A stretch of 64,000 nucleotides of DNA from Bolinopsis microptera (lineage: Eukaryota > Ctenophora > Tentaculata > Lobata > Bolinopsidae), in the NCBI RefSeq assembly GCF_026151205.1, contig NC_087084.1, forward strand, positions 1,650,312 to 1,714,311, read 5' to 3'. Below are positions 36,025 through 64,000 of the stretch, one piece after another. The position numbers were made by a program, and so were the translations under genes. The stretch's first letter is position 1. The number at the start of each line of letters is the position of its first letter. Under the pieces are notes generated by a model. That model searched no databases. It was not told the DNA's origin and worked only from the letters and a program-made list of their open reading frames with translations.

Positions 36025-36076
36025 TTAATCGCACACTACTTCCGTTTCATACGTAGTCACTGGGAATTTAACCGTT
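36025..36076 (-). CDS. Sushi gene exon 43 (stop codon)
   Basis: Acceptor TTTTCAG. Reads TVKFPVTTYETEVVCD then TAA at 36,025-36,027. Confidence 0.78.
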
Positions 36077-39000
36077 CTGAAAAGCAGTTGGGTCAGGTTT
36101 AAACTTACTTCTTTTTAAAAAGGTTACTTTAAGTAAAGCGCCTGCTGAAACTGAACGTAGTTCATAAGTTTGTGAACTATAAATCTAATTGTGCTGTATT
36201 TTGAGCTATACGTTTATATAACACATAAAATAACAAGTTGTTAGGAAGGCTCCGCTTGTTCGACAGTGCAACAAAAAGAAACAAATTGAAACTAACGTTT
36301 CCTCGGTGCATCTTCCTAGAATACAGTTTCCTGGTATTACTTTAGTGACATACGTTACCACTTCTTTCCTCCTCTCTTTGCAGGCTGAAATTATTTGTGC
36401 TTGTAAAAATGTTCCGGGTGATAAGTACAGGTAAAATCATTTTTTTTAAATATTTGATTGTGCTGCTGGGAATTAAGACAGACCAAATAAACGTACAATC
36501 GTTTTTATCAGTTAAGATTTAAAATTAAGAAACTAATCAGCTGAATATAAATAATTATCTTACAAGCACATGTCTTGTCCACATCACCCTCCCAGAGTCC
36601 ATCATCTCCACACTTGTAAACAAGCTTGTTCTGAAATAGTGTTTTGTTGAGAGATAATCATCATAATTATGCTAGTCATATCATTATTATCCTAGACATG
36701 TCAAAGCTAGACATGTCAATGCTAGGCATGTCAATGCTAGACATGTCAATGCTAGACATGTCAATGCTAGACATGTCAATGCTAGACATGTCAATGCTAG
36801 ACATGTCAATGCTAGACATGTCAATGCTAGACATGTCAATGCTAGACATGTCAATGCTAGACATGTCAATGCTAGACATTTCAATGCTAGACATGTCAAT
36901 GCTAGACATGTCAATGCTAGACATGTCAATGCTGCTAGACATATCATACTTATATTTGATCATACGGCTCTGATTTGCTGATTGTCAAATATTGGAAAGA
37001 GCGTGGTATAATTCAGGTATGGAAACTCTTATCTTATTTAAGAAAGTAAGAAGGTTTAATTTTTTTTTACTTTGTAAAATTATATTCTATATTCTACAAA
37101 AGTTGCACGTAGTCGGTGGAGAATGTTAGGACATGTTTTGCGGGGTCCCGTTGACGGACCAGTGTTTTTTAGACTTGGGCGTTGTTTTTAACTATCCCTT
37201 GTTTAGAACTTTGTTTTTAATAATAAATTCTACGAACTAAATTGTAACTGAGAAGTGAGTACTGTTAACTGGTAACAATTAACTAACCTTGTACGGCTCA
37301 CACACAAACTGCACTGTTTCCAGATAGTCGTACTATTAACTGGTAACAATTAACTAACCTTGTACGGCTCACACACAAACTGCACTGTTTCTAGATAGTC
37401 GTACTATTAACTGGTAACAATTAACTAACCTTGTACGGCTCACACACAAACTGCACTGTTTCCAGATAGTCGTACTATTAACTGGTAACAATTAACTAAC
37501 CTTGTACGGCTCACACACAAACTGCACTGTTTCCAGATAGTCGTACTATTTACTGGTAACAATTAACTAACCTTGTACGGCTCACACACAAACTGCACTG
37601 TTTCCAGATAGTCGTACTATTTACTGGTAACAATTAACTAACCTTGTACGGCTCACACACAAACTGCACTGTTTCCATAGGGCCTGTCGTGATATCATGG
37701 ATCGCTTAGGTTCCACCAGGATCTGGTAGTCCTCATAATTCTGCGGCCTCTATGTGTCGTCATCTCGCACAACTCCGAAAAACCGTTGTGAGTTTGGCAT
37801 GTGAAAATTTGCAGCCCTCCAGACATCGATTGGGTTAACGAGTTGTCGTACGTCACCTCAAGATCGGGTGACAGGGGGCTGAACAGGCCAGAACCCAATT
37901 GATTGGGTCGGAGGTCACGTGATTATGAGCCTGAGGTCACGTGACTATGACGTCACCAGAGCTGAGAGCTCGTTCTCCGTTTCCCGCTCTTTGGACCAGG
38001 TGAGCTTGCATGCTTGTGAAAGTGGGTGTAAGTACAGCTGTACTGTAAGTGTAGTTACATCCAATTACCCCTAATAGAACGAAGATTTATTTCTGACAGA
38101 AAGCTAGAAATTTACCAAAATATCGACTTTGTTCAAAATTTATTTTGATGACCACTCCTGACCTAAAATTGCACGAGAAATCGATTAAACTTGGTTTCAG
38201 AACTCAACAATGCTTCCTTATGCCTTAAAATCCATTTTTATCGATAAAATAAACATTTTGATCCTGTGGATTAATTAGTAACAGGTAACAAATGCACAGA
38301 AAAAACCATCGCACTTACATTGCATTCTTAACGGGTCGATTTCGAGTGACCAATAATCGTCGTGATGATATTTATACGTCATGCGTTCCTGATCATCATC
38401 AGCAATCAAGAGACAGGAGCGGCGATTGCTTTAAATCAACGGTTTACGTTATTTTTGTGAATTCGACCCCTGTTTTAACGGTTATCACACTTTGTAATTG
38501 AATGTATTGAGGATAGCTTTACAAATAAGAGGACCAGTAAATAAAATTGCCACAAGTGTTTCTCTCACTCACTTTCGATAAGATACAATGGAAATTCTTA
38601 CTTCCATAAGATTCGGAATTTTTTTAAACGCTGAAGAAAATCGGAATTTTATAAAATTTAATCACGCATCTTCTGGAACCCTAAGCTTCATAAGAACCCT
38701 TACAAGGCGAGGTTCATTGCAGGTGCCCGTTTTTGCGTTACGAAACAACTTAACGTCCAAGTTAACTGTTGTCTGAAACTTTTGAGGAAATACTTTAAGA
38801 AATACTGCGAGGCAATATACAACAACAGCGGTATAAACATGTTTTGGAGCATAGATTCCTCAAGTGAATTCCTTGAAGCTATCAAAAATAGCGATGTTTA
38901 TAATATACAAGTATATGATTTTACTACTCTTTATACCAGATTAGACTTGATTGAAGTAGAGAATATGATTAATGAAGTTGTTGATTTAATATTTTCAGAC

Positions 39001-42000
39001 CGTAATAGATATATTTGTATTTCTAAAAGAGACAGTAATACATGTTTCTTTTCCAATAAAACCTATGATTCTCATGCCTGCTTTAGTCAAGATGACCTAA
39101 AAGAGGCTGTTAAATTTATTATTTATAACACTTATGTCGTCTTCGGTGGGATTGTATTCATACAAACCAAGGGTATTCCTATGGGTGGAAATTCAAGTTC
39201 CCCTATAGCTGATCTCACTGTTGGCAAAAAGGAATTTAATTATATGAAACGTTTACTTCAGGAAAAGAAAATGGGATTAGCAAAGATATTATCCAATAAT
39301 AAACGATATGTTGACGATTAACCTTAATATGACTACAAGCACATACACAGTGGCCAATTTGGTAAGCTGTTTACAGCAGGGTTTTAGCGTAATAATCGAT
39401 CTTTTAGAATGTCCTCCTCCTCCTGGGTCTTCCTGATCCTCCTCCTCCCTCTCAGTCATCCTCCTCAGTCATCCTCCTCAGTCATCCTCCTCAGTCATCC
39501 TCCTCAGTCATCCTCCTCAGCCATCCTTCTCAGCCATCCTCCTCAGTACTCTTCAGTCTTCAGTACTCTTCAGTCCTCCTCCTTCTAGGCGGACATAGCT
39601 ATAGGCGGACATAGGCGGACATAGACGGACATAGGCGGACATATACGAACATTAATGGACACCTAAATTGCTAAATAAAATGTTCAATTTTTGCTGTTAT
39701 AGGGGGGATCATGTTTTTTGTCCGTTCGGTACCCTATATTTTCAAAACGGACAAAAAATAGAGCGGACAAAAATGGACAAAAACGGACAAAAATGGAAAT
39801 AACATTTAGATGCTTCCTCCTCCTACTCTTCCTCCTCCTCCTCCTGGGTCTTCCTGATCTTCCTCAGTCCTCTTCCTCCTCCCCTCCTCAGTCCTCCTCC
39901 TACTCTTCCTCCTCGTCCTCAGTCCTCCTCATCAGTCCTTAACTGTCCTCCTCCCCAGTCCTCCTCCTCCTCCTGAGTCCTCCTCCTTAAATTTAACACG
40001 ATTTTCCGCAAAAACGCGAATTAAATAGGTAATAATTTATTTAGTCTCTTGAGTCTTAAAACCACTCAGGGGTTAGACGGGTTCCTGCTAGTAGACTTTA
40101 ACCTGTCGACAATATTTCAGGAATGATTCCCGCAAGAAATTATATTCCTTCGTTTTGCTGTGATCCCTACTCTGGAACTAACTGCTGATGGAATTTCATA
40201 CGATTCGTTGATTTTTTGTAAAAATTGAACTTATATTTTATAAAATTCCGATATTCTTCAACGGTTGAAAAATTCCGAATCTTATGGTTAAGTAAGAATT
40301 TGCATTGTGTCTTATCGAAAGTGAGTAAGAGAAACACTTGTGACAATTTTATTTACTGGTCCTCTTATTTGTAAAGATATCCTCAATACATTCTATGACA
40401 AAGTGTGATAACTGTTAAAACAGGGGTCGAATTTACAAAAAATAACGTAAACCGTTGATTTAAAGCAATCGCCGCTCCTGTCTCTTGATTGCTGATGATG
40501 ATCAGGAACGCATGACGTATAAATATCATCACGACGATTATTGGTCACTCGAAATCGACCCGTTAAGAATGCAATGTAAGTGCGATGGTTTTTTCTGTGC
40601 ATTTGTTACCTGTTACTAATTAATCCACAGGATCAAAATGTTTATTGAATCGATAAAAATGGATTTTAAGGCATAAGGAAGCATTGTTGAGTTCTGAAAC
40701 CAAGTTTAATCGATTTCTCGTGCAATTTTAGGTCAGGAGTGGTCATCAAAATAAATTTTGAACAAAGTCGATATTTTGGTAAATTTCTAGCTTTCTGTCA
40801 GAAAATAAATCTTCGTTCTATTAGGGGTAATTGGATGTAACTACAGTACAGCTGTACTTACACCCACTTTCACAAGCATGCAAGCTCACCTGGTCCAAAG
40901 AGCGGGAAACGGAGAACGAGCTCTCAGCTCTGGTGACGTCATAGTCACGTGACCTCAGGCTCATAATCACGTGACCTCCGACCCAATCAATTGGGTTCTG
41001 GCCTGTTCAGCCCCCTGTCACCCGATCTTGAGGTGACGTACGACAACTCGTTAACCCAATCGATGTCTGGAGGGCTGCAAATGTTCACATGCCAAACTCA
41101 CAACGGTTTTTCGGAGTTGTGCGAGATGACGACACATAGAGGCCGCAGAATTATGAGGACTACCAGATCCTGGTGGAACCTAAGCGATCCATGATATCAC
41201 GACAGGCCCTACTGTTTCCAGATAGTTGTACTATTAACTAGTAACAATTAACTAACCTTGTACGGCTCACACACAAACTGCACTGTTTCCAGATAGTCGT
41301 ACTATTAACTGGTAACGATTAACTAACCTTGTACGGCTCACACACAAACTGCACTGTTTCCAGATAGTCGTACTATTAACTGGTAACAATTAACTAACCT
41401 TGTACGGCTCACACACAAACTGCACTGTTTCCAGATAGTCGTACTATTAACTAGTAACAATTAACTAACCTTGTACGGCTCACACACAAACTGCACTGTT
41501 TACAGATAGTCGTACTATTAACTAGTAACAATTAACTAACCTTGTACGGCTCACACACAAACTGCACTGTTTACAGATAGTCGTACTATTAACTGGTAAC
41601 AATTAACTAACCTTGTACGGCTCACACACAAACTGCACTGTTTCCAGATAGTCGTACTATTTACTGGTAACAATTAACTAACCTTGTACGGCTCACACAC
41701 AAACTGCACTGTTTCCAGATAGTCGTACTATTAACTAGTAACAATTAACTAACCTTGTACGGCTCACACACAAACTGCACTGTTTCCAGATAGTCGTACT
41801 ATTAACTAGTAACAATTAACTAACCTTGTACGGCTCAAACACAAACTGCACTGTTTCCAGATAGTCGTACTATTAACTGGTAACAATTAACTAACCTTGT
41901 ACGGCTCACACACAAACTGCACTGTTTCTAGATAGTCGTACTATTAACTGGTAACAATTAACTAACCTTGTACGGCTCACACACAAACTGCACTGTTTCC

Positions 42001-45000
42001 AGATAGTCGTACTATTAACTGGTAACAATTAACTAACCTTGTACGGCTCACACACAAACTGCACTGTTTCCAGATAGTCGTACTATTAACTGGTAACAAT
42101 TAACTAACCTTGTACGGCTCACACACAAACTGCACTGTTTCCAGATAGTCGTACTATTTACTGGTAACAATTAACTAACCTTGTACGGCTCACACACAAA
42201 CTGCACTGTTTCCAGATAGTCGTACTATTAACTGGTAACGATTAACTAACCTTGTACGGCTCACACACAAACTGCACTGTTTCCAGATAGTCGTACTATT
42301 TACTGGTAACAATTAACTAACCTTGTACGGCTCACACACAAACTGCACTGTTTCCAGATAGTCGTACTATTAACTAGTAACAATTAACTAACCTTGTACG
42401 GCTCACACACAAACTGCACTGTTTCCAGATAGTCGTACTATTAACTAGTAACAATTAACTAACCTTGTACGGCTCAAACACAAACTGCACTGTTTCCAGA
42501 TAGTCGTACTATTAACTGGTAACAATTAACTAACCTTGTACGGCTCACACACAAACTGCACTGTTTCTAGATAGTCGTACTATTAACTGGTAACAATTAA
42601 CTAACCTTGTACGGCTCACACACAAACTGCACTGTTTCCAGATAGTCGTACTATTAACTGGTAACAATTAACTAACCTTGTACGGCTCACACACAAACTG
42701 CACTGTTTCCAGATAGTCGTACTATTAACTGGTAACAATTAACTAACCTTGTACGGCTCACACACAAACTGCACTGTTTCCAGATAGTCGTACTATTTAC
42801 TGGTAACAATTAACTAACCTTGTACGGCTCACACACAAACTGCACTGTTTCCAGATAGTCGTACTATTAACTGGTAACGATTAACTAACCTTGTACGGCT
42901 CACACACAAACTGCACTGTTTCCAGATAGTCGTACTATTTACTGGTAACAATTAACTAACCTTGTACGGCTCACACACAAACTGCACTGTTTCCAGATAG
43001 TCGTACTATTTACTGGTAACAATTAACTAACCTTGTACGGCTCACACACAAACTGCACTGTTTCCAGATAGTCGTACTATTTACTGGTAACAATTAACTA
43101 ACCTTGTACGGCTCACACACAAACTGCACTGTTTCCAGATAGTCGTACTATTTACTGGTAACGATTAACTAACCTTGTACGGCTCACACACAAACTGCAC
43201 TGTTTCCAGATAGTCGTACTGTTAACTGGTAACGATTAACTAACCTTGTACGGCTCACACACAAACTGCACTGTTTCCAGATAGTCGTACTATTAACTGG
43301 TAACAATTAACTAACCTTGTACGGCTCACACACAAACTGCACTGTTTCCAGATAGTCGTACTATTAACTGGTAACAATTAACTAACCTTGTACGGCTCAC
43401 ACACAAACTGCACTGTTTCCAGATAGTCGTACTATTAACTGGTAACAATTAACTAACCTTGTACGGCTCACACACAAACTGCACTGTTTCCAGATAGTCG
43501 TACTATTAACTGGTAACAATTAACTAACCTTGTACGGCTCACACACAAACTGCACTGTTTCCAGATAGTCGTACTATTAACTGGTAACAATTAACTAACC
43601 TTGTACGGCTCACACACAAACTGCACTGTTTCCAGATAGTCGTACTATTAACTGGTAACAATTAACTAACCTTGTACGGCTCACACACAAACTGCACTGT
43701 TTCCAGATAGTCGTACTATTAACTAATAACAATTAACTAACCTTGTACGGCTCACACACAAACTGCACTGTTTCCAGATAGTCGTACTATTAACTGGTAA
43801 CAATTAACTAACCTTGTACGGCTCACACACAAACTGCACTGTTTCCAGATAGTCGTACTATTAACTGGTAACAATTAACTAACCTTGTACGGCTCACACA
43901 CAAACTGCACTGTTTCCAGATAGTCGTACTATTAACTGGTAACAATTAACTAACCTTGTACGGCTCACACACAAACTGCACTGTTTCCAGATAGTCGTAC
44001 TCTGCCTTGTCAGTTCCTGTTATTCTACTTCCTTCAGGAACTCTTCTTTTACATCTCACTCCTGTGAGAGAGATAACAAATAATATTAAATGATAACATC
44101 TAAAAGTAAGCTATAACATAAGTATCCATATTCCGTGCACACTTTGAAACCATTTATTTATTTATCTACGATATTATGTTTTTTTGTTTGGTTGAATAAC
44201 TTTCCGTTAACTGATTGGGATCTGACACATGTAATTTTGTAATGATCTTTCTAATTTCTAATTTCTAATTTCTAATTTCTAATTTCTAAATTTCTAATTT
44301 CTAATTTCTATAAAACACGAATGAACTATTTAGAAAACGTAAGACTGTATCGAATAGAAAAATCCATAAACAGATAAACGAGTTCATTATTTGCCAGTTT
44401 ACTCTTCCGTAGAAAAACTACCATTGAATTTTGAAAGTTCTCCAAGTATTTGAAATCCAAATATCAACATTGAATATTGCAGCTTAAAGGTGTCTTAAAA
44501 CAATGGAAATATGTGTGGTGATCTACTAACGTTCACATTTTGGAGAAATCCCATCCCATTCTCCACTTTCAAGGCATGTTCGGGTATTCCGACCTTCTGG
44601 TACCATCTTATAGCCTGGATTACACATATACTGCACCGACCTGGTAAAATGGTTTTATCACTTCAACAGCTCCTTTAAGGTAATAATTATATGTCTAATA
44701 TCCACCTGCAACCAAAAATATTAAAAGGCCGTTATTTTGAATCATTTAAATATTTTAAATCTTTGCTTTAAGATTATTTTAAACTCACGTTCCCACCACG
44801 TTCTCATCAGCAGTCTCTATAATTCCGTTAAGAAGAGATAGTACGGGACAGGAGACACATTTACACTCGGGTGGGGCATATGTCCACTGTTTGTTGTTTG
44901 TGCACGTTCTTATATCTTCCCCCATCAGGTGGTACCTGGGGGTTATTACTTAGTAATACTACCTTACCGGACTTTATTAAACCTGGGGGTTGTTACTTAG

Positions 45001-57000: not shown

Positions 57001-60000
57001 TTCTGTGCACTCGTTACAAGTGTACTTTAACTGCGGAGATCAGGTGCCTGTCACTATTTGGTGGCCCATGTAATGACAGTAACAGGTTTTTTTTTCGAAC
57101 AAAAATAATTATTTTGTCATTATTTTCAAAATTGTTTGTTTAAATTATTTTCTCAAATATTACCTTTCCACCGCAGGATAAAGCTTCCTTAGTAACTGTG
57201 GCGTTAGTGACAACAGGGATCTCATCGTCCGCACATGCCATTACTGAAATTATGACCTGATTAGAAAATTTAAATTCGAGTTATATTTAATATATGATAC
57301 ACAAATTCAAAATCACACCATAAAAACATTGTTTTAAGGCTGACATATAATCAAATTATCTGGACATTGATCAACATGTTTAATAATTGTCATAAACAAT
57401 TTGAGCAATTTGAGGAATACTCAAGTAAGGTAATGTTGCCATGGTTACATGACCATTATAAGGTACTCACTTTGACAGACTGGAGGTAGTCCACTCCACT
57501 GGCCCTTAGGGTCTTTCTTAATGTCTTTAGGAACACAAGATCTCTCCAGGTCTCCACTCACGTGTCTGTAGCACTTGTCACACTCCCATCTGAAGTGTGT
57601 GAGTGTCAGTAATTTAATATATAAGTATATACATTCCCATCTGAACAGTAACATATTATAGAGTGGCGTTTATTACATAGTGAGGTAGTTTATTACTAGC
57701 AGGAACCCGTATAACCCTATTTTTTCATGCTGATTTGGAGGACATTAAAGCATTTGACCCATTCAAAAAAAGGTTCAGTAATTTATTATAGAGTGATGTT
57801 GAGGAGATAAGGATGACTGAACTCTGCTTAATCTAATGTAAATCCAATTAGAAAGGAGGTAAAGAAAGTGGTTGAACATAATAAACAGATCAAGAGAAAC
57901 TGAAGAAAGTGAACAGGTAAAAACACTTTACCTGAGTGTGTTAGGTTGTGTTACCTGAGTGAAGAAAGTGAACAGGTAAAAACACTCTACCTGAGTGTGT
58001 TAGGTTGTGTTACCTGAGTGAAGAAAGTGAACAGGTAAAACACTTTACCTGAGTGTGTTAGGTAGTGTTACCTGAGTGAAGAAAGTGAACAGGTAAAAAC
58101 ACTCTACCTGAGTGTGTTAGGTTGTGTTACCTGAGTGAAGAAAGTGAACAGGTAAAACACTTTACCTGAGTGTGTTAGGTTGTGTTACCTGAGTGAAGAA
58201 AGTGAACAGGTAAAAACACTCTACCTGAGTGTGTTAGGTTGTGTTACCTGAGTGAAGAAAGTGAACAGGTAAAACACTCTACCTGAGTGTGTTAGGTAGT
58301 GTTACCTGAGTGAAGAAAGTGAACAGGTAAAAACACTTTACCTGAGTGTGTTAGGTTGTGTTACCTGAGTGAAGAAAGTGAACAGGTAAAACACTTTACC
58401 TTAATGTGGTGGTGCAGTTGTACTCGTGGTCGTCGTTCACTAGATAAGCGTTAGAGACTGGCTCAGGAGCATCACATGTCATGTCTGGAAACGATACAGC
58501 ATGTTACCGTGGTTACAATATCACACACCACTTGGTACCAGTAAAAGTCCCATTATTTTAAACGCAGTGATTGTGGGTGCGCACTAAAGAATTCACCAGA
58601 CTATTTTCCTATAATCTAACAAGCTAACAGAACCATCAGTTACAGAGTGTTTCACATGAAATGTGTCTATTTTAAATTTGTTGAAAATACAGTAAGTTCT
58701 TACAAATGCAGCTAGGAGTGTGTGACAAATACTGCAAGTTCTTACAAATGCAGCTAGGGATGTGTGACTTACAAGTGCAGCTAGGGATGCAACTTATAAA
58801 TGCAGCTAGGGATGTGTGACGATGAAATAATGTAAGTTCTTACAAATGCAGCTAGGGATGTGTGACGATGAAATAAAGTAAGTTCTTACAAATGCAGCTA
58901 GGGATGTGTGAGGATGATATGTTCCACGTTCCATCACTCTGACACATCAACCTGTCTTTGTCACATACGTGATAACAATCTTTAGATACTGCCTGAGTAG
59001 AGGGAGGTTGTAAATATTCTACTAATTTAATGTAAATATTGTTAAAAAGGATTTTTAATAGCTATAAGATATATTGAATAGTAAAGCTATAAGATATATT
59101 TAAGAGAGTGAATAACATTCTATTCAAAGAACAGCGATGTCACTGTTAAAAGAGTAAATAACTTACCTCTACGTCCATTATATCACCACAGTAGAATGTG
59201 TCATCTCCAGAAACCCTCTTTCCGTCTACTGAACTCTCAAACTGGCAACCACCTGGTTATATATTGATTACTGTTTTAAACAACAACAAAAGATCCGAAA
59301 TTTTGTAAGAGTGTCCTTCAGTACACACTTATTTAAGTTAAATTATTATTGTTTCGTGTATAATTTCTGGGGTTAACTTCAGCTCAATATAATGACTTTT
59401 GAGTCTTATCTCACCATTATGAGTCTTATGAGGTGGTCCTAATTCACACAATATCAGGTTTCCTCTCAACCATAATACCAATCTCCTTACCTGGCCACTC
59501 TACATCATAGTTATATTTCCTCTTAACCATAATACCAATCTCCTTACCTGGCCACTCTACATCATAGTTATATTTCCTCTTAACCATAATACCAATCTCC
59601 TTACCTGGCCACTCTACATCATAGTTATATTTCCTCTTAACCATAATACCAATCTCCTTACCTGGCCACTCTACATCATAGTTATATTTCCTCTTAACCA
59701 TAATACCAATCTCCTTACCTGGCCACTCTACATCATAGTTGTATCTCCTAGAGAACTCCGGTTGTCTCCATGGACACGTCTTCCTAGAGCAGGTTGGTAT
59801 CTCGTGATCCCATTCACCAGAACCGTCACATGACAACGTGGCCTCTCCGTTCATTTCATAACATCCTGGGATAACTTTAATTTACATTACTTACCCAGAT
59901 AACCAATGGAATTGCTTAGCATTACTGAACTAAATTGCATGCTACATTTCAAATGTATAGAAATATAAAGAGATAATGTTAAACTAGATCCCCTTACCAT

Positions 60001-63000
60001 CATCGCACTCCAAAGTCACAACACAGTTACACTTGAAGAGATAATGTTAAACTAGATCCCCTTACCATCATCACACTCCAAAGTCACAACACAGTTACAC
60101 TTGAAGTATAAAGAGATAATGTTAAACTAGATCCCCTTACCATCATCACACTACAAAGTCACAACACAGTTACACTTGAAGTATAAAGAGATAATGTTAA
60201 ACTAGATCCCCTTACCATCATCACACTACAAAGTCACAACACAGTTGCACTTACCATCATCGCACTCCAAAGTCACAACACAGTTACACTTGAAGAGATA
60301 ATGTTAAATTAGGGCCCTTACCATCATCGCACTCCAAAGTCACAACACAGTTACACTTGAAGTCATTGCTACAAGTCTCCTCCACAACCCGGATGTTATC
60401 CCTCAACACCAGCTCAGGGCACTCCATCTTCACACACGTTATCTCCACCCCGTCATACACACCGTCCACGTGGGATAAAGGACAGGTCTGGTTACTCGCT
60501 ACTTGTGTGCAACTTCTTGTGTTGTCTCCGCCTTCTTGTCTGTAACAGGTGTTGCAGGTTGCGGTTGAGGCTTCTCCGCATTGTAGTGCTCCTGGGGGAG
60601 GGTGAGGTATTAGGCTGGGCCCTGGGGTGGGTATTAGGCTGGAGGAGGGTGGGTATTAGGCTGGGCCCTGGGGTGGGTATTAGGCTGGGGGAGGGTGGGT
60701 ATTAGGCTGGAGGAGGGTGGGTATTAGGCTGGGGGGAGGGTAGGTATTAGACTGGGCCCTGGGGTGGGTATTAGGCTGGAGGAGGGTGGGTATTAGGCTG
60801 GAGGAGGGTGGGTATTAGGCTGGAGGAGGGTGGGTATTAGGCTGGAGGAGGGTGGGTATTAGGCTGGAGGAGGGTGGGTATTAGGCTGGAGGAGGGTGGG
60901 TATTAGGCTGGAGGAGGGTGGGTATTATGCTGGAGGAGGGTGGGTATTAGGCTGGAGGAGGGTGGGTATTAGGCTGGAGGAGGGTGGGTATTAGGCTGGG
61001 CCCTGGGGTGGGTATTAGGCTGGAGGAGGGTGGGTATTAGGCTGGAGGAGGGTGGGTATTAGGCTGGAGGAGGGTGGGTATTAGGCTGGAGGAGGGTGGG
61101 TATTAGGCTGGGCCCTGGGGTGGGTATTAGGCTGGAGGAGGGTGGGTATTAGGCTGGAGGAGGGTGGGTATTAGGCTGGGGGGAGGGTGGGTATTAGGCT
61201 GGGCCCTGGGGTGGGTATTAGGCTGGAGGAGGGTGGGTATTAGGCTGGAGGAGGGTGGGTATTAGGCTGGGGGGAGGGTGGGTATTAGGCTGGGCCCTGG
61301 GTGGGTATTAGGCTGGAGGAGGGTTGGTATTAGGCTGGGCCCTGGGGTGGGTATTAGGCTGGGGGAGGGTGGGTATTAGGCTGGAGGAGGGTGGGTATTA
61401 GGCTGGAGGAGGGTGGGTATTAGGCTGGAGGAGGGTGGGTATTAGGCTGGAGGAGGGTGGGTATTAGGCTGGGGGGAGGGTGGGTATTAGGCTGGAGGAG
61501 GGTGGGTATTAGGCTGGAGGAGGGTGGGTATTAGGCTGGAGGAGGGTGGGTATTAGGCTGGGGGGAGGGTGGGTATTAGGCTGGGCCCTGGGGTGGGTAT
61601 TAGGCTGGAGGAGGGTGGGTATTAGGCTGGAGGAGGGTGGGTATTAGGCTGGAGGAGGGTGGGTATTAGGCTGGGGGAGGGTGGGTATTAGGCTGGAGGA
61701 GGGTGGGTATTAGGCGGGGCCCTGGGGTGGGTATTAGGCTGGAGGAGGGTGGGTATTAGGCTGGAGGAGGGTGGGTATTAGGCTGGGCCCTGGGGTGGGT
61801 ATTAGGCTGGAGGAGGGTGGGTATTAGGCTGGAGGAGGGTGGGTATTAGGCTGGAGGAGGGTGGGTATTAGGCTGGAGGAGGGTGGGTATTAGGCTGGGG
61901 GAGGGTGGGTATTAGGCTGGGCCCTGGGGTGGGTATTAGGCTGGAGGAGGGTGGGTATTAGGCTGGAGGAGGGTGGGTATTAGGTTGGAGGAGGGTGGGT
62001 ATTAGGCTGGGGGAGGGTGGGTATTAGGCTGGAGGAGGGTGGGTATTAGGCTGGGCCCTGGGGTGGGTATTAGGCTGGAGGAGGGTGGGTATTAGGCTGG
62101 AGGAGGGTGGGTATTAGGCTGGAGGAGGGTGGGTATTAGGCTGGAGGAGGGTGGGTATTAGGCTGGGCCCTGGGGTGGGTATTAGGCTGGAGGAGGGTGG
62201 GTATTAGGCTGGGGGAGGGTGGGTATTAGGCTGGGCCCTGGGGTGGGTATTAGGCTGGAGGAGGGTGGGTATTAGGCTGGAGGAGGGTGGGTATTAGGCT
62301 GGGGGGAGGGTGGGTATTAGGCTGGGCCCTGGGGTGGGGGTGGGTATAAGGCTGGGGGGAGGGTGGGTATTAGGCTGGGGGGGGGGAAGAGGGTGGGGGA
62401 GGGTGCAGCGGAGGGTGTAAGGAATATTTAGAAATAGGTGGAACACTTGTTTATTACGTTTATTTTTTACGGAACCTCTAGGGCAAACAAACAAACAAAC
62501 AAACAAACAAACCCCACCTTTTTTGTTAGTGATGAGAGCGTTGGGAACGTTTCTCTGTCTGCACATGATAGGGGCACATTGTGGCTCGCTGTTGCTCCAC
62601 ACTGTGGCTGTTCCGTTCCATTTGCACGTGCGCTCGCACGTACTCGTGCATGGGAAACTGCAGCTGTTACATTGCACGTGCAGTGTGTCTCCGCACTCCA
62701 GGATTTCTCCTGATAGATATTAATATTTTTGGGTCATTTTATAAAACATCTATATTTGTGGGTACCGTAAAATTCATTAAGCTACATATTATTGTATTTG
62801 TTAAATATTCAGCCTGTATAGTGTATATTTCCGGTTGCATTTAATAGGAATATATTGTTCCTAATGTTCCTAATGTTCCTAATGTTCCTAATGTTCCTAA
62901 TGTTCCTAATGTTCCTAATGTTCCTAATGTTCCTAATGTTCCTAATGTTCCTAATGTTCCTAATGTTCCTGCTGTTGCGCCTACCTTGAGAAACCTCAGC

Positions 63001-64000
63001 ACCATTAAACAGATAGTTCCCATCCTCGTACGATGTAACAGCAGGACACTTCCTCTTCACACATGTTGGTAGCTCACCAGACCAGCTACCGTCTGGCTGG
63101 CAGGTTCTTGTAGCGTTACCTTCAATCTGGTGGAGTCTATGTTATTACCATGGTTACTGTGTTACTGTGGTTACCAGTAACTGTGTTACTGGCAGGTTCT
63201 TGTAGCGTTACCTTCAATCTGGTGGAGTCTGTGTTATTACCATGGTTACTGAGGTTACCAGTAACTGTGTTGCTGGACACCGGTTGGGAGGTGAGCGATG
63301 TCACGTATCGATATATATTATATATATAGCTCCTCGAAGTTAAAAATATAATAAACTAATAAAGAACAGTACCTCATAACAAGGACTGTCACAATAGTAG
63401 TTTATTTGGTAGGAGCAGTAGTGAGCTCCACCAGATCTGATGGATAAGTGAGCATCTCCGCTAGCTTCTACTTCCACTGCTGGGTCCGCACACTGTTTCA
63501 CTGTATAGGAGTTAGGATTATAATTAGCACACTATATGGTAGTACAATTAGCACACTGTATGGTAGTACAATTAACACACTGTATATTAGTATAATTAGC
63601 TTCTTCCATCGTTAAATATTGAATATTTTGTAATCAGGAGACTTAAAAGAGAGTACAAAGGAGAGTATAAGATGAGGAGAACTTTTTTTCTTTTCTTTTT
63701 TAAAGCCCCTCGTAAGGGGGTTGTCTCTAATGGACTAATTTATTGATTACAATCATAATAAGTAAAAAATAAAGACCCCAATGGGCACTCCTGAAGACAT
63801 AACTACTAGAAAATATATCAAAACTAAATAGAAAAAACTGAGGACAAATGTGATAAAATCGCATCAAACTGCAAATAATGGAAGATACATTTAGGATTCG
63901 TTATTTAATGGCACGCAGCAGATAATAAAAAACTAACGTCTGCACTCAGGTAGGGTCCCATCTCCCCACTTGTTGTTGCAGCACCCCACCTCCGGGGTCC
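36025..64000 (-). CDS. Giant multi-sushi (CCP) domain protein, 3' 43 exons
   Basis: 43 exons joined by GT-AG introns with matching codon phase give about 1,988 residues and one stop at 36,025-36,027. The 5' end is beyond 64,000. Listed exon by exon below. The protein is a run of about 25 sushi/CCP-like modules: Cys, an aromatic before the second Cys, C-x-x-(G/C)-Y, then C...W and P..C. Most introns split a module just before or after the second-Cys region. About half of the modules have CxxCY in place of CxxGY. CCP proteins are extracellular, binding complement, adhesion or matrix partners. The C-terminus (GRCTEETTVKF to VVCD) has no membrane segment or GPI tail, so secretion is likely; the signal peptide would be upstream. 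The partner is unknown. I cannot name an orthologue; SVEP1/CSMD-like is only domain similarity. Confidence 0.85.
36297..36384 (-). CDS. Sushi gene exon 42
   Basis: Acceptor TTTCAG, donor GTTAGT. CKERRKEVVTYVTKVIPGNC, then ILGRCTEE. Confidence 0.78.
36564..36630 (-). CDS. Sushi gene exon 41
   Basis: Acceptor TTTCAG, donor GTAAGA. NKLVYKCGDDGLWEGDVDKT, then CA. Joins exon 40 in phase 0 across the 7.3 kb intron. Confidence 0.85.
36700..36940. repeat. 15-bp tandem repeat
   Basis: About 16 copies of CTAGACATGTCAATG in the intron between exons 41 and 40. The unit is a multiple of three, which explains long repetitive open frames on both strands; none is a gene. Confidence 0.95.
37261..37677. repeat. 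71-bp satellite, distal part (about 6 copies)
   Basis: Same unit as 41,212-43,999, cut off from it by the 3.5-kb element. On the gene strand each unit reads the exon 40 tail, donor GTTAGT and 20 nt of intron. Confidence 0.95.
38782..39321 (+). pseudogene. Penelope-like reverse transcriptase fragment
   Basis: 179 codons. VYDFTTLYTRLDL, then a long gap, GIPMGGNSSSPIADL and KRYVDD at the end: RT motifs A, B and C in the spacing and wording of Penelope-like RTs. The frame stops right after the catalytic YVDD, so the thumb and any GIY-YIG endonuclease are missing. Lies in the unique centre of the 3.5-kb inverted-arm element. An upstream frame at 38,588-38,776 (ending RNNLTSKLTVV) may be its N-terminal remainder. 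Confidence 0.65.
39400..40000. repeat. CTCCTC-rich simple repeats
   Basis: Two pyrimidine-rich tracts (39,410-39,590 and 39,810-39,990, CTCCTCAGTCAT and CTCCTC units) separated by GGCGGACATA and GGACAAAAA repeats. Confidence 0.85.
41212..43999. repeat. 71-bp satellite, proximal part (about 39 copies)
   Basis: Unit on the plus strand begins TACTATTAACTGGTAACAAT and includes CTAACCTTGTACGGCTCACA and CTGTTTCCAGATAGTCG. On the gene strand it reads TACGACTATCTGGAAACAGT through GAGCCGTACAAG|GTTAGT, which is the exon 40 tail plus donor. The copy nearest exon 40 is the exon itself. Variants (ACTAGT, TTTACTGG, AACGATT, GTTTCTAG, CTCAAACAC) recur in the same order every nine units, about 639 bp, e.g. 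41,660 and 42,299. Confidence 0.95.
43955..44061 (-). CDS. Sushi gene exon 40
   Basis: Acceptor TCACAG, donor GTTAGT. VRCKRRVPEGSRITGTD, then VQFVCEPYK. The final 45 nt and the donor are the repeating unit of the 71-bp satellite that follows downstream for about 6.7 kb. Confidence 0.85.
44245..44312. repeat. TTTCTAA short tandem repeat
   Basis: About eight copies of TTTCTAA in the intron between exons 40 and 39. Confidence 0.9.
44531..44640 (-). CDS. Sushi gene exon 39
   Basis: Acceptor TACCAG, donor GTTAGT. VQYMCNPGYKMVPEG, then EWDGISPKCE. Confidence 0.88.
44789..44935 (-). CDS. Sushi gene exon 38
   Basis: Acceptor CCCCCAG, donor GTGAGT. RTCTNNKQWTYAPPEC, then SCPVLSLLNGII. The acceptor is repeated in the 44,936-45,075 array. 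Confidence 0.88.
44936..45075. repeat. 47-bp repeat on exon 38 acceptor, 3 copies
   Basis: Plus-strand unit ACCTGGGGGTTGTTACTTAG plus TAATACTACCTTACCGGA... (abridged). On the gene strand each copy ends AACCCCCAG|GT, as at the true acceptor. Confidence 0.9.
45076..45405. repeat. 60-bp repeat in sushi intron 37, about 5 copies
   Basis: Unit includes TGAACAACAACTAAATCTAA and GTTGGAGGCCCTAGAGTTC. Lies just downstream of the exon 37 donor but does not contain it. Confidence 0.92.
45419..45650 (-). CDS. Sushi gene exon 37
   Basis: Acceptor CTTCAG, donor GTCAGC. VHYVCDEGYELYGDPVRRC, WSGPGPTSC, KHCGNVGDI, VQYKCKDD. Confidence 0.9.
45931..46179 (-). CDS. Sushi gene exon 36
   Basis: Acceptor CTCTCAG, donor GTAGGT. 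KQCSKPDHAVGNGRL, VTFKCDESYAL, EWDNKFPLC, CPVLEEV. Confidence 0.9.
46378..46626 (-). CDS. Sushi gene exon 35
   Basis: Acceptor CCTCAG, donor GTATGT. IISCQQDGTW, RCEHSECEPLANVTHGRI, IECDPCYGP, WSPPKPTEC. Confidence 0.9.
46899..47095 (-). CDS. Sushi gene exon 34
   Basis: Acceptor TACCAG, donor GTAAGA. YKLVGDKQLKC, IPTCEEVTCPHPEV, YECEDG. Confidence 0.88.
47303..47378 (-). CDS. Sushi gene exon 33
   Basis: Acceptor TTGCAG, donor GTAAGT. RITSGHDVEDIPKCGETVSF, then ECDLG. Confidence 0.86.
47517..47738. repeat. 62-bp repeat of exon 32 tail plus donor
   Basis: Downstream of the true junction (47,739) come four more copies of the exon 32 end (ATCCAATACTTTGTTATCTG on the gene strand) and its GTAAGG donor, a few with small changes. 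Confidence 0.92.
47739..48285 (-). CDS. Sushi gene exon 32 (largest)
   Basis: 547 bp. Acceptor CACCAG, donor GTAAGG. Carries parts of four modules: YTCGVNPRQRRC, WEYPHSGC, WYTCEEGYKMEG, YQCNTCSELQGG, LCYLPAISNG. The acceptor recurs in the 48.3-48.6 kb array and the tail with donor in the 47.5-47.74 kb array. Confidence 0.9.
48281..48615. repeat. Repeat of exon 32 acceptor with GTGTTA runs
   Basis: The acceptor and exon head (CTACACCAG|GTAGAAT on the gene strand) recur at about 48,362, 48,452 and 48,601, separated by TAGTGTTAG-type simple repeats. Confidence 0.85.
48800..48938 (-). CDS. Sushi gene exon 31
   Basis: Acceptor TTGCAG, donor GTAAGA. TRKCDGEKWSGTEPECVAI, then DCGDISVSLPL. Confidence 0.86.
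49129..49249 (-). CDS. Sushi gene exon 30
   Basis: Acceptor CCTCAG, donor GTTAGA. KRCSNPGTPANGRM, VTYECNTGYHF. The acceptor region is repeated at 49,250-49,375. Confidence 0.88.
49250..49375. repeat. 43-bp repeat on exon 30 acceptor, 3 copies
   Basis: Gene-strand unit runs AGAAGAGGTGTAGTATCTCC to the next CAG; each copy mimics the acceptor and the first eight exon bases (AGAAGAGG). Confidence 0.88.
49456..49547 (-). CDS. Sushi gene exon 29
   Basis: Acceptor CCTACAG, donor GTCAGT. HVLKCEATGNWNGSFPVCQ. Confidence 0.82.
49698..50246. repeat. 10-bp array (TAACTGCTGC)n with inverted caps
   Basis: About 55 units. The left cap AAAGTGCAAAGAAACTGCTG and the right cap (inverse: AAAGTGCAAAAAAACTGCTG) are inverse copies. 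G-rich flanks with GTACAGGGGG-type motifs lie outside both caps. Confidence 0.93.
50454..50586 (-). CDS. Sushi gene exon 28
   Basis: Acceptor CCCTTAG, donor GTAAAC. KVCTSINSSPYRSHFP, then VTFKCDDCYKF. Confidence 0.85.
50876..50978 (-). CDS. Sushi gene exon 27
   Basis: Acceptor ACCCAG, donor GTAAGA. VYKCDEGYYLTDGDLVRNC, then WTGKHPVC. A standard CxxGY module. Confidence 0.88.
51095..51370. repeat. Repeat with poly-C, about 6 copies
   Basis: Unit of 45-60 bp: TGGTACGCATGACAAGGTCC, a C/T tract of variable length, then TTCCTACACCCC. In the intron between exons 27 and 26. Confidence 0.93.
51435..51718 (-). CDS. Sushi gene exon 26
   Basis: Acceptor GTTCAG, donor GTTAGT. RQCEEAPEIEHGQV, RYRCDRCYTF, MWNETAPTCERITCQAPPSP. 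Confidence 0.88.
52044..52122 (-). CDS. Sushi gene exon 25
   Basis: Acceptor TTTCAG, donor GTAAGT. STDGIMEAQCNYDKSWSW, then EPKMN. The module-closing Cys usual after 'P' is absent. Confidence 0.78.
52269..52307. other. Perfect hairpin in sushi intron
   Basis: ATAATTAGCAAGCC, 11-base loop, GGCTTGCTAATTAT: a 14-bp perfect stem in the intron between exons 25 and 24. Confidence 0.85.
52474..52604 (-). CDS. Sushi gene exon 24
   Basis: Acceptor TATCAG, donor GTTTCT. SRCATPPAVPHC, ELECDECYYEESC. Confidence 0.82.
52897..53005 (-). CDS. Sushi gene exon 23
   Basis: Acceptor GGTCAG, donor GTAAGA. VEVTCDECYELPDGSRSQ, HTCQTNKTWSHHLPTC. Confidence 0.88.
53536..53636 (-). CDS. Sushi gene exon 22
   Basis: Acceptor TTTCAG, donor GTGAGT. 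KTCPYRDIDETMHLQY, then NPAHCQST. Confidence 0.82.
53795..53906 (-). CDS. Sushi gene exon 21
   Basis: Acceptor TTTGCAG, donor GTGAGT. KNPPVKQCVKKQSD, then EWTNRDKSCT. Confidence 0.82.
53910..54025. repeat. ATGCAAAT-type 8-bp array next to exon 21 acceptor
   Basis: About twelve ATGCAAAT or ATACAAAT units. On the gene strand this gives TTTGCAT runs leading into the acceptor ATATTTGCAG. Confidence 0.9.
54097..54302 (-). CDS. Sushi gene exon 20
   Basis: Acceptor CCGCAG, donor GTTAGT. ICCEHLEEPVDP, CDRDYVCQEIDPICGPCFEY. Confidence 0.85.
54469..54588 (-). CDS. Sushi gene exon 19
   Basis: Acceptor TAACAG, donor GTGAGT. VRYECDPCYRLVGSETLTC, then WSSNPPVCE. Confidence 0.88.
54740..54926 (-). CDS. 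Sushi gene exon 18
   Basis: Acceptor TCCACAG, donor GTGAGA. VECDCCHK, LQCLPTKFW, PKCVPITCSEP, CTCG. Confidence 0.88.
55020..55415. repeat. 32-bp array echoing exon 17 donor, about 12 copies
   Basis: Plus-strand unit GATGGACTTACAGGCTAAAT plus ATCTAAAAGTGA. On the gene strand each has GTAAGTCCATCTCACTTTTA-like sequence, the same as the true donor and start of the intron. Confidence 0.93.
55421..55506 (-). CDS. Sushi gene exon 17
   Basis: Acceptor AACAG, donor GTAAGT. KDCNVPEIPAENNLHY, then KKCNQT. Its donor is echoed in the 32-bp array at 55,020-55,415. Confidence 0.82.
55752..55836 (-). CDS. Sushi gene exon 16
   Basis: Acceptor TTTCAG, donor GTGAGT. SDSAPTRKCVKKGNSKEGYW, then MCT. Confidence 0.82.
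56110..56235 (-). CDS. Sushi gene exon 15
   Basis: Phase 0 both ends. Acceptor CCTGCAG, donor GTAGGT. GCGDNYVCQEVAAECDECYE. Confidence 0.85.
56515..56600. repeat. Exon 14 junction repeats
   Basis: On the gene strand, CTACCAG|GTAATA recurs as CTACCAG|GTAATA and CTACCAG|GTCACA within 80 bases of the true donor. Confidence 0.8.
56601..56653 (-). CDS. Sushi gene exon 14 (short)
   Basis: 53 bp. Acceptor TTTCAG, donor GTAATA. ICCPALLPVPSEDEDYQ. The CTACCAG|GT junction recurs twice more downstream (56,515-56,600). Confidence 0.8.
56810..56912. repeat. Duplicate of exon 13 tail plus donor
   Basis: The segment ACTGATAAAATGATAAAACG and TACGTTGACA is present twice, so donor GTACGT and a few exon bases are doubled. 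Confidence 0.85.
56913..57030 (-). CDS. Sushi gene exon 13
   Basis: Acceptor CCGCAG, donor GTACGT. LKYTCNECTELVGNEEVIC, then WVNTPPSC. The tail with donor is duplicated at 56,816-56,880. Confidence 0.85.
57164..57243 (-). CDS. Sushi gene exon 12
   Basis: Acceptor TTTCAG, donor GTAATA. ACADDEIPVVTNATV, then LSCGGK. Confidence 0.82.
57471..57589 (-). CDS. Sushi gene exon 11
   Basis: Acceptor CTTCAG, donor GTGAGT. WECDKCYRHVSGDLERSC, then WSGLPPVC. Confidence 0.88.
57900..58399. repeat. 60-bp array on exon 10 donor, about 8 copies
   Basis: Gene-strand unit includes CTCAGGTAAAGTGTTTTACC; the true junction reads TTAAG|GTAAAGTGTTTTACC. Each copy is donor-like. Confidence 0.93.
58400..58484 (-). 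CDS. Sushi gene exon 10
   Basis: Acceptor TTCCAG, donor GTAAAG. MTCDAPEPVSNAYLV, then YNCTTTL. The donor region is repeated at 57,900-58,395. Confidence 0.82.
58690..58889. repeat. Repeat of exon 9 tail plus donor, about 5 copies
   Basis: Plus-strand unit AGTTCTTACAAATGCAGCTA plus GGGATGTGTGACGATGAAAT. Gene strand: CCCTAGCTGCATTT|GTAAGAACT in each complete copy. Confidence 0.92.
58890..58992 (-). CDS. Sushi gene exon 9
   Basis: Acceptor TACTCAG, donor GTAAGA. CYHVCDKDRLMCQSDGTWN, then IPSC. The tail with donor is tandemly repeated at 58,690-58,890. Confidence 0.85.
59167..59252 (-). CDS. Sushi gene exon 8
   Basis: Acceptor AACCAG, donor GTAAGT. GCQFESSVDGKRV, then FYCGDIMDVE. Confidence 0.82.
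59415..59462 (-). CDS. Sushi gene exon 7 (short)
   Basis: 48 bp, NLILCELGPPHKTHNG. Donor GTGAGA; acceptor GAGAG has a poor pyrimidine tract and is formed by the last repeat unit. Supplies the module's third-region Cys. The acceptor is the least certain in the chain. Confidence 0.55.
59463..59718. repeat. 57-bp repeat of exon 6 tail, donor and acceptor
   Basis: Four further copies after the true donor. Unit on the gene strand: GAAATATAACTATGATGTAG...TGGCCAG|GTAAGG...AAGAG|GAAA (abridged). Each unit carries both an AG|GAAA and an AG|GTAAGG. The length is 19 codons and the frame stays open throughout. Confidence 0.92.
59719..59865 (-). CDS. Sushi gene exon 6
   Basis: Acceptor CCCAG, donor GTAAGG. 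CYEMNGEATLSCDGSGEWD, then TCPWRQPEFSRR. The frame stays open through the 57-bp array beyond the donor, but only splicing here joins exon 7 in frame. Confidence 0.75.
60000..60321. repeat. Repeat of exon 5 tail plus donor, about 5 copies
   Basis: Units of about 62-75 bp containing, on the gene strand, TGTGTTGTGACTTTGGAGTG then TGATGATG|GTAAGG. They are near-identical to the true exon end. Confidence 0.92.
60322..60591 (-). CDS. Sushi gene exon 5
   Basis: Acceptor CCCCCAG, donor GTAAGG. Contains CNTCYRQEGGD, ITCVKMECPEL and CNCVVTLECDDG. Its 3' end with donor is repeated five times at 60,000-60,322, and its acceptor faces the 22-bp array. Confidence 0.85.
60600..62390. repeat. 22-bp GC-rich minisatellite, 1.8 kb
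   Basis: About 80 units of GGGTGGGTATTAGGCTGGAG plus GA, mixed with a GGGCCCTGGG variant unit. Located immediately upstream of the exon 5 acceptor. The gene strand is pyrimidine-rich with CTCCTCCAG in each unit, like the true CTCCCCCAG acceptor. Confidence 0.96.
62518..62709 (-). CDS. Sushi gene exon 4
   Basis: Acceptor TATCAG, donor GTGGGG. Contains VQCNSCSF and WSNSEPQCAPIMC. Cysteine-dense (CTSTCERTC), more than a normal module. Confidence 0.8.
62858..62972. repeat. 9-bp array (CTAATGTTC)n
   Basis: About 12 copies in the intron between exons 4 and 3, ending ten bases before the exon 3 donor. Confidence 0.95.
62985..63126 (-). CDS. Sushi gene exon 3
   Basis: Acceptor CCACCAG, donor GTAGGC. 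NATRTCQPDGSWSGELPTC closes one module; KCPAV opens the next. The acceptor and exon head are duplicated at 63,126-63,265. Confidence 0.85.
63050..63265. repeat. Duplicated exon 3 head and acceptor
   Basis: The segment CTGGCAGGTTCTTGTAGCGT through TTACCATGGTTACTG occurs twice, so the exon 3 start and its CCACCAG acceptor are doubled. Confidence 0.88.
63373..63500 (-). CDS. Sushi gene exon 2
   Basis: Acceptor TATACAG, donor GTACTG. Module start KQCADP, then YYCDSPCYE. Ends in phase 0. Confidence 0.8.
63501..63937. other. Sushi intron 1, nothing coding
   Basis: Holds a GCACACTGTATGGTAGTACA-type repeat in three copies (63,525-63,595). The rest is AT-rich intron. Confidence 0.6.
63938..64000 (-). 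CDS. Sushi gene exon 1 of those visible (partial)
   Basis: Runs off the right edge. Reads GCCNNKWGDGTLPECR, the end of a sushi module. Donor GTTAGT, one base left over. Confidence 0.75.

Follow-up and report, generated by a model that had tools for sequence, protein, structure and literature searches.

The introns of a large sushi (CCP) gene hold many minisatellites whose units run across an exon-intron boundary, and arrays of the same build occur in kinesin genes. On the features tested they belong to the kind described in amphioxus as mirages, and they probably go back to short tandem duplications that fell at random, were purged from exons but tolerated at junctions, and then expanded. The striking pattern in this one gene is mostly a matter of geometry, in that its introns are short, the repeat units are long and exons are kept clear of arrays by purging. 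The window, by which we mean the whole stretch of 64,000 nucleotides that was analysed (C13:1650312-1714311), contains the 3' part of the gene. Window positions carry the prefix w in the text, and the genome searched comprises 264.65 Mb in 232 contigs.

36564..64000, minus strand: 3' part of the large sushi (CCP) gene (gene model, PF00084 matches, Pfam)

The gene model extends beyond the window to about w103900. Exons were predicted by a self-trained dynamic-programming gene finder, applied after collapsing the arrays; exon edges are therefore to be read as predicted and hand-curated, and exon numbers are our own, counted from the 5' end of the sequence taken. Introns are short, with a median of about 210 bp once arrays are collapsed. 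A diverged copy of the gene (copy A, C13:1490272-1541365) lies about 190 kb upstream and aligns with the window from 32.9 kb on; outside arrays it shares 93.8% identity with the window copy (copy B) over 22.1 kb aligned. The homology of A stops within the gene although its sequence continues, and B is modelled for about 17 kb further, which suggests that A is a segmental copy of part of the gene and not the other haplotype.

In B, as far as the flank taken extends, the gene finder placed 87 exons, and in A it placed 62. They form 60 pairs, 50 of which are the same in phase and length, the other 10 differing at uncertain edges. The unpaired exons within the shared part are B27, B74, B79, A1 and A17. 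Exon B74, predicted inside the w51094 array, was judged spurious and dropped as an artefact, and exon 79 was predicted in B only, with the B79 sequence and the same splice sites found in the DNA of A. Among the 60 paired exons, at their predicted edges, there is no clear case of intron gain or loss between the two copies. Exons 86 and 87 jointly give a match to a single sushi domain (PF00084, positions 6-56 of the profile, E 3.7e-4), with a 71-bp array and an inserted element between them in B, which supports the first donor as real and the array as intronic.

Past the window, the gene model also includes a protease-like stretch (C13:1722778-1727308; C13:1532791-1536849 in copy A). Its relatives by phmmer against the PDB are subtilisin, proteinase K and PCSK9-like proteins (best 4dzt, E 1.6e-12), and a Pfam search of the stretch gave no match. 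Its catalytic Asp and Ser motifs, located by eye rather than by formal alignment, read GGG and GTPY, so the stretch may be an inactive protease.

Arrays were called with TRF, and the 79 rows in the window were curated to 19 arrays with units of at least 18 bp, located in the gene within the window. On inspection of the sequence, three of them (w49240, w59960 and w63081) were assigned by hand to the junction-spanning class, and manual splitting of the merged cluster w44934-45400 gave a 47-bp and a 59-bp array. The curated count leaves out units below 18 bp, eight arrays of at least 18 bp in inserted elements (w37678-41210, w79110-80700 and w82236-85640), copy A arrays corresponding to a counted B array, and the unpaired 5' part of the gene past w86700. 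This last part contains six arrays of at least 18 bp, two of which span model junctions (w91855 and w92267, exons uncertain).

By these hand-curated statuses, 13 of the 19 window arrays, all on the minus strand, span a junction: nine donors (exons 54, 55, 57, 58, 61, 62, 65, 78 and 86) and four acceptors (exons 52, 76, 78 and 84). The other six span none, one of them abutting the exon 54 acceptor. Over both copies of the gene there are 19 junction-spanning arrays, 13 at donors and 6 at acceptors. The initial annotation had listed nine donor and four to five acceptor arrays by exon number rather than coordinate; compared by count and order, that list agrees with the nine donor arrays, the four acceptor arrays and the abutting one found here.

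41211..44001, minus strand: 71-bp x 39 donor-spanning array, exon 86, 47 exonic bases per unit (TRF, gene model, genome search, Pfam)
37259..37677, minus strand: far end of the exon 86 71-bp array, 5.9 units, past the inserted element (TRF, genome search)
37678..41211, no strand assigned: 3.5-kb mobile-element-like insertion inside the 71-bp array (long inverted arms)
44934..45076, minus strand: 47-bp x 3 acceptor-spanning array, exon 84, 2 exonic bases (TRF, gene model)
47517..47778, minus strand: 56-bp x 4.7 donor-spanning array, exon 78 (TRF, gene model)
48279..48620, minus strand: 86-bp x 4 acceptor-spanning array, exon 78; none found at the matching place in A (TRF, gene model, A/B comparison)
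49240..49382, minus strand: 43-bp x 3.3 acceptor-spanning array, exon 76 (TRF, junction assigned by hand)
55011..55422, minus strand: 32-bp x 13 donor array, exon 65, 2 exonic bases; none at the matching place in A (TRF, gene model, A/B comparison)
56513..56608, minus strand: 43-bp x 2.2 donor-spanning array, exon 62; 4.4 units in A (TRF, A/B comparison)
56821..56934, minus strand: 57-bp x 2.0 donor-spanning duplication, exon 61; single-copy site in A, 0 bp overlap (TRF, A/B comparison)
57901..58408, minus strand: 59-bp x 8.6 donor-spanning array, exon 58; unit found nowhere else in the genome search (TRF, genome search)
58685..58931, minus strand: 46-bp x 5.4 donor-spanning array, exon 57; none at the matching place in A (TRF, A/B comparison)
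59459..59749, minus strand: 57-bp x 5.1 donor-spanning array, exon 55; about 12-13 units in A (TRF, gene model, A/B comparison, genome search)
59960..60369, minus strand: 75-bp x 5.5 donor-spanning array, exon 54; one unit in A (TRF, A/B comparison, hand classing)
60592..62405, minus strand: 22-bp x ~80 array abutting the exon 54 acceptor, 0 exonic bases; unit CCTAATACCCACCCTCCTCCAG (TRF)
63081..63276, minus strand: 92-bp x 2.1 acceptor-spanning duplication, exon 52 (A/B comparison, hand classing)

Several features of this region were seen in passing. The unit of the abutting array, CCTAATACCCACCCTCCTCCAG (w60592-62405), resembles a whole 3' splice site, with a branch-like CTAAT, a pyrimidine tract and AG; about 80 copies of it precede the real acceptor. 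The insertion that splits the 71-bp array (w37678-41211) has near-perfect inverted arms with paired segments of 370, 367 and 152 nt. By eye, it contains an open frame resembling reverse transcriptase (YDFTTLYTRLDL, GIPMGGNSSSPIADL), for which Pfam and PDB (phmmer) searches returned no match at 1e-3. The 71-bp unit was also considered as a mini-exon, given a 45-nt open stretch per unit, and this was set aside since it would require 26-nt introns. Elsewhere in the window, a 99-bp tandem repeat at w26904-27418 resembles ankyrin-repeat coding sequence by eye.

Most arrays do not begin at the junction, which falls anywhere in the unit. The exonic part of the units in junction-spanning arrays ranges from 2 to 47 bases; as a fraction of the unit it extends from 0.04 to 0.86 in the 27 junction arrays compared (median 0.39; KS against uniform, P 0.07). 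Two exonic bases or fewer are present in only 2 of the 19 sushi-gene junction arrays. By hand count, an array edge lies within 3 bp of the junction in 5 of 50 sushi events, compared with 2.5 expected. It had been proposed from the letters of the sequence that at least twelve arrays start exactly at an exon-intron boundary. That many arrays do sit on boundaries, 13 of them spanning one, but with exonic parts of 2-47 bases the exact start does not hold, nor do array edges in the 50 sushi events lie near splice sites in more than the 5 cases just compared with chance.

Junction arrays in kinesin genes indicate that the phenomenon is not peculiar to the sushi gene. Eleven kinesin loci were taken from 109 HMM matches; the choice fell on loci with several matched exons and preceded any look at their sequence. 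Exon edges were assigned by hand and fixed by protein motifs (SSRSH, DLAGS and GGNS, which we take to be kinesin motor motifs; profile positions were computed here by HMM). The count retains 31 of 33 arrays of at least 18 bp, two beyond the gene spans having been dropped, and locus-mean intron length is 365-1681 bp in the first 8 loci. Of the 11 loci, 4 carry eight junction-spanning arrays, by hand count four donor and four acceptor:

Kinesin locus on C2: 35 bp x 25, donor; 41 bp x 5.8, acceptor; 49 bp x 26, acceptor, unit encoding FSFIDLAGS
Kinesin locus on C12: 33 bp x 52, donor; 26 bp x 112, acceptor
Kinesin locus on C13: 38 bp x 2.0, donor, unit encoding SSRSHA; a 21-bp acceptor array (TRF row 109 x 4.9)
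Kinesin locus on C5: 53 bp x 2.0, donor

The recurrent local process suggested for the window is supported, in the form of tandem duplication, and is seen in at least two unrelated gene families and on several chromosomes. The kinesin loci also display other arrangements. Arrays of one 21-bp unit flank a kinesin exon pair on both sides (C12:14834390-14835011 and C12:14835365-14835445), a comparable split array is found at C13:6735144-6735465 and 6736317-6736847, and two 35-bp arrays with reverse-complementary units stand head to head in a kinesin intron (C2:22506596-22507937).

As a null for the number of junction-spanning arrays, a segment of the collapsed-unit length was placed randomly in the collapsed gene, with wholly exonic places excluded. 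The window exceeds this null, with 13 of 19 arrays against 6.0 expected (P 8e-4, 2.2-fold), an excess that is to be read as an outlier chosen as such, the window having been picked for looking striking. In the rest of the sushi gene (B outside the window and A-only arrays) 6 of 31 arrays span a junction (7.9 expected), and in the kinesin genes 8 of 31 (4.8 expected, P 0.09). All data outside the window amount to 14/62 against 12.7 (P 0.39), and window and outside combined to 27/81 against 18.8 (P 0.02). In size classes that were set after the data had been seen, 30-120 bp units outside the window give 13/37 against 8.6 (P 0.06), and in kinesin genes alone 7/18 against 3.2 (P 0.02). The remaining classes outside the window give 1/23 against 2.9 for 18-29 bp units and 0/2 above 120 bp.

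An uncurated first pass yielded 15/60 against 12.2 for the window copy B (P 0.20) and 11/43 against 10.0 for copy A (P 0.42), with an excess in the 40-120 bp class only (B 13/22 against 7.5, P 0.01; A 8/13 against 4.3, P 0.03). None of the 50 sushi events is a wholly exonic array, compared with 9.5 under uniform placement (P(0) 2e-5), which is what purifying selection on coding sequence predicts. Junction-spanning is therefore largely geometry, most of it arising because introns are short and units long, and a modest junction preference for mid-sized units is possible. Anchoring of arrays on splice sites, or their targeting to them, is not supported, in view of the variable position of the junction and a level of junction-spanning outside the window that is close to random placement.

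The arrays are independent of one another in sequence. A comparison among the first two units of each of the 27 junction arrays produced no cross-match at E 1e-3. In genome searches, the listed matches of the 71-bp unit (of 208) all fall within the two gene copies, as do 17 of 17 for the 57-bp unit, and 8 of 8 for the 59-bp unit fall within the window copy. Related sequence at many loci, as expected of a dispersed repeat family or an introner-like element, was not found among these 27 arrays, nor genome-wide for the three units among the matches listed. The initial annotation was right that no single repeat family is spreading here: the junction arrays do not match each other, and the three units match their own locus or locus pair among the matches listed.

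The origin of the arrays can be followed in those with only two units. Seven of 14 two-copy arrays are clean duplications of 38-92 bp with a breakpoint overlap of 0-2 bp beyond one unit:

57 bp: exon 61 donor, copy B, 0 bp overlap, single-copy site in A
65 bp: exon 81 donor, copy A, 2 bp overlap, single-copy site in B
51 bp: exon 48 donor, copy A, 1 bp overlap, single-copy site in B with a small indel
53 bp: kinesin locus on C5, 1 bp overlap
38 bp: kinesin locus on C13, 1 bp overlap
86 bp: exon 18 acceptor (5' part of the gene, modelled with less certainty), 0 bp overlap
92 bp: re-duplication at the exon 30 donor, copy A, 2 bp overlap

The edges of these seven founders mostly lie many bases from the splice site, and overlaps of 0-2 bp speak against slippage at AG|GT sites, which had been offered as a source. 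The other seven are degraded or composite, including four that are purely intronic. The exon 62 two-copy array has a 10-bp overlap and a longer array in A, and the duplications at the exon 30 and exon 52 acceptors match over less than the full unit.

Hand matching of the 19 junction arrays of the two gene copies assigned 8 to both, 7 to B only and 4 to A only. Shared arrays differ in their number of units between the copies (about 45 and about 163 for the 71-bp unit, 5 and 12-13 for the 57-bp unit, 26 and 42 for the 31-bp unit). The likely course is that tandem duplication with little homology comes first and unequal exchange acts on its products, with an enzymology that we infer.

Each junction-spanning unit carries a splice site, and spare sites do arise in this way, as had been anticipated. 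To what extent these decoys are conserved was assessed in 16 array entries (of 17, one lacking a consensus having been skipped; the A 71-bp array was entered as two halves). Variable sites make up 74 of the 398 positions in exonic parts, 19 of the 116 in splice motifs and 72 of the 270 in intronic parts. Both exonic and splice-motif positions thus vary less than intronic positions do (Fisher P 0.017 and 0.036, respectively), with P values that are optimistic in that units are related by descent and some arrays are common to both gene copies. Single arrays differ in this respect; in the 71-bp array of A, for instance, either half has 4 variable sites among its 8 motif sites. Overall, the units keep splice sites and exon edges somewhat better than the intronic parts, which concerted evolution with the functional unit or use of the decoys would explain.

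The explanation we favour, and regard as probable, begins with a stretch of about 30-130 bp that would be duplicated in tandem by an error needing almost no sequence homology. Such duplications would fall on the gene essentially at random. Those wholly within exons would be eliminated by selection, and intronic or junction-crossing ones would survive, the latter because the original edge (the first donor or the last acceptor) is still used and the extra copies fall into the intron. With short introns and long units, about a fifth to a third of the surviving duplications would be expected to lie across a junction. From two copies on, unequal exchange or slippage would expand and contract the array, up to about 163 copies. 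What we observe in its favour are the junction-spanning units, their sequence independence, the two-copy founders, the copy-number differences, the lack of wholly exonic sushi arrays and the random fit outside the window; the repair event, the expansion mechanism and the disuse of most decoy sites are what we infer.

Alternatively, exon-intron junctions might be the target of duplication, whether through slippage or break repair at AG|GT sites or through damage linked to transcription or splicing. The window excess (13/19 against 6.0), the 30-120 bp kinesin units (7/18 against 3.2), the edges within 3 bp of a junction (5/50 against 2.5) and a 13-bp array that begins exactly at a donor GT (C12:14833546-14833832) all point this way. 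We nonetheless consider targeting unlikely, given the rest of the sushi gene (6/31 against 7.9), the variable place of the junction within the unit, and clean founders with minimal overlap and edges mostly far from the splice site. A real junction preference of some degree is possible in view of the 2.2-fold window excess and of 13/37 against 8.6 for 30-120 bp units elsewhere. A false pattern could come from assembly errors or from misplaced exon edges, considering that exons were predicted from DNA alone and that one predicted exon, B74, was itself spurious. Such an artefact is highly improbable against two diverged gene copies with mostly identical exons, a sushi domain that reads across the 71-bp array, kinesin motifs at exon edges and single-copy sites in the paralogue.

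Duplication could also be random while junction arrays are kept or expanded more than others, either by a selected functional unit re-seeding the array or by spare sites buffering splicing. This agrees with the lower variability of exonic and splice-motif positions in the 16 array entries and with kinesin arrays of at least 4 copies, of which 6 of 13 span a junction against 2.0 expected (P 0.007, first 8 loci). Sushi arrays of at least 4 copies are not significantly enriched (10/24 against 6.8, P 0.11), the variable-site counts of related units are not independent and base composition may differ, and we hold preferential retention to be improbable. Pure neutrality of the decoys, on the other hand, does not predict the lower exonic and motif variability, unless conversion from the functional unit accounts for it. 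A broader reading would have junction-spanning duplications generated or retained above random in this lineage, decoys constrained by re-seeding or splicing use, and the arrays serving as a standing genome-wide reservoir of splice sites; we regard it as doubtful. The arrays offer a natural system for studying spliceosome choice among many near-identical sites and the part played by tandem duplication in intron evolution.

Several known systems resemble these arrays. Ordinary intronic minisatellites share copy-number turnover and local origin, and many such arrays are present in the same introns, but their units, unlike those described here, do not carry an exon edge and splice site. Tandem duplications covering a splice site or intron-exon edge, as in our arrays, are reported for intron gain in potato RdRp (PMC4974935) and for human internal tandem repeats (PMC2812944). 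Whereas a new functional intron is formed in those cases, no clear gain is seen here among paired exons and the copies appear inside an existing intron; intron gain is a possible later outcome of these arrays. Among ctenophores, titles and abstract openings in the open-licence literature revealed no splice-spanning arrays. The Hormiphora genome paper gives tandem repeats as 13% of that genome, with nothing on arrays at splice junctions in its accessible text (PMC8527503).

The closest match is with the mirages of amphioxus, minisatellite-like duplications of intron-exon boundaries at either boundary, described for Adh3, from which work the name comes, and for the globins BflGb6 and BflGb9; they differ in copy number and, where tested, gave no sign of disturbed splicing (PMC3087553). 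Similar repeats are reported in lancelet PGBD5 and TnC (PMC3902484). Their description weakens the view of the present arrays as a lineage-specific mutational system. As in mirages, an exon-intron boundary lies inside the unit (in 13 window arrays, 19 in the two gene copies together and 8 in kinesin genes, at predicted or motif-based edges); the unit is of donor or acceptor type, with both 5' and 3' boundaries duplicated (13 donor and 6 acceptor in the sushi gene, 4 and 4 in kinesin genes), and brings many decoy AG/GT sites. Units of 10 to 160 bp and varying array copy number are further likenesses, although the variation is between haplotypes there and between paralogous copies of one assembly, not individuals, here. 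The present arrays differ in belonging to another genome, probably of another phylum, known from one assembly, in their density (13 in 28 kb of one gene) and in reaching up to about 163 copies, and paralogue presence or absence and breakpoints are resolved. Mirage-type minisatellites are thereby found outside amphioxus, in two unrelated gene families, with founding duplications caught next to their single-copy sites.
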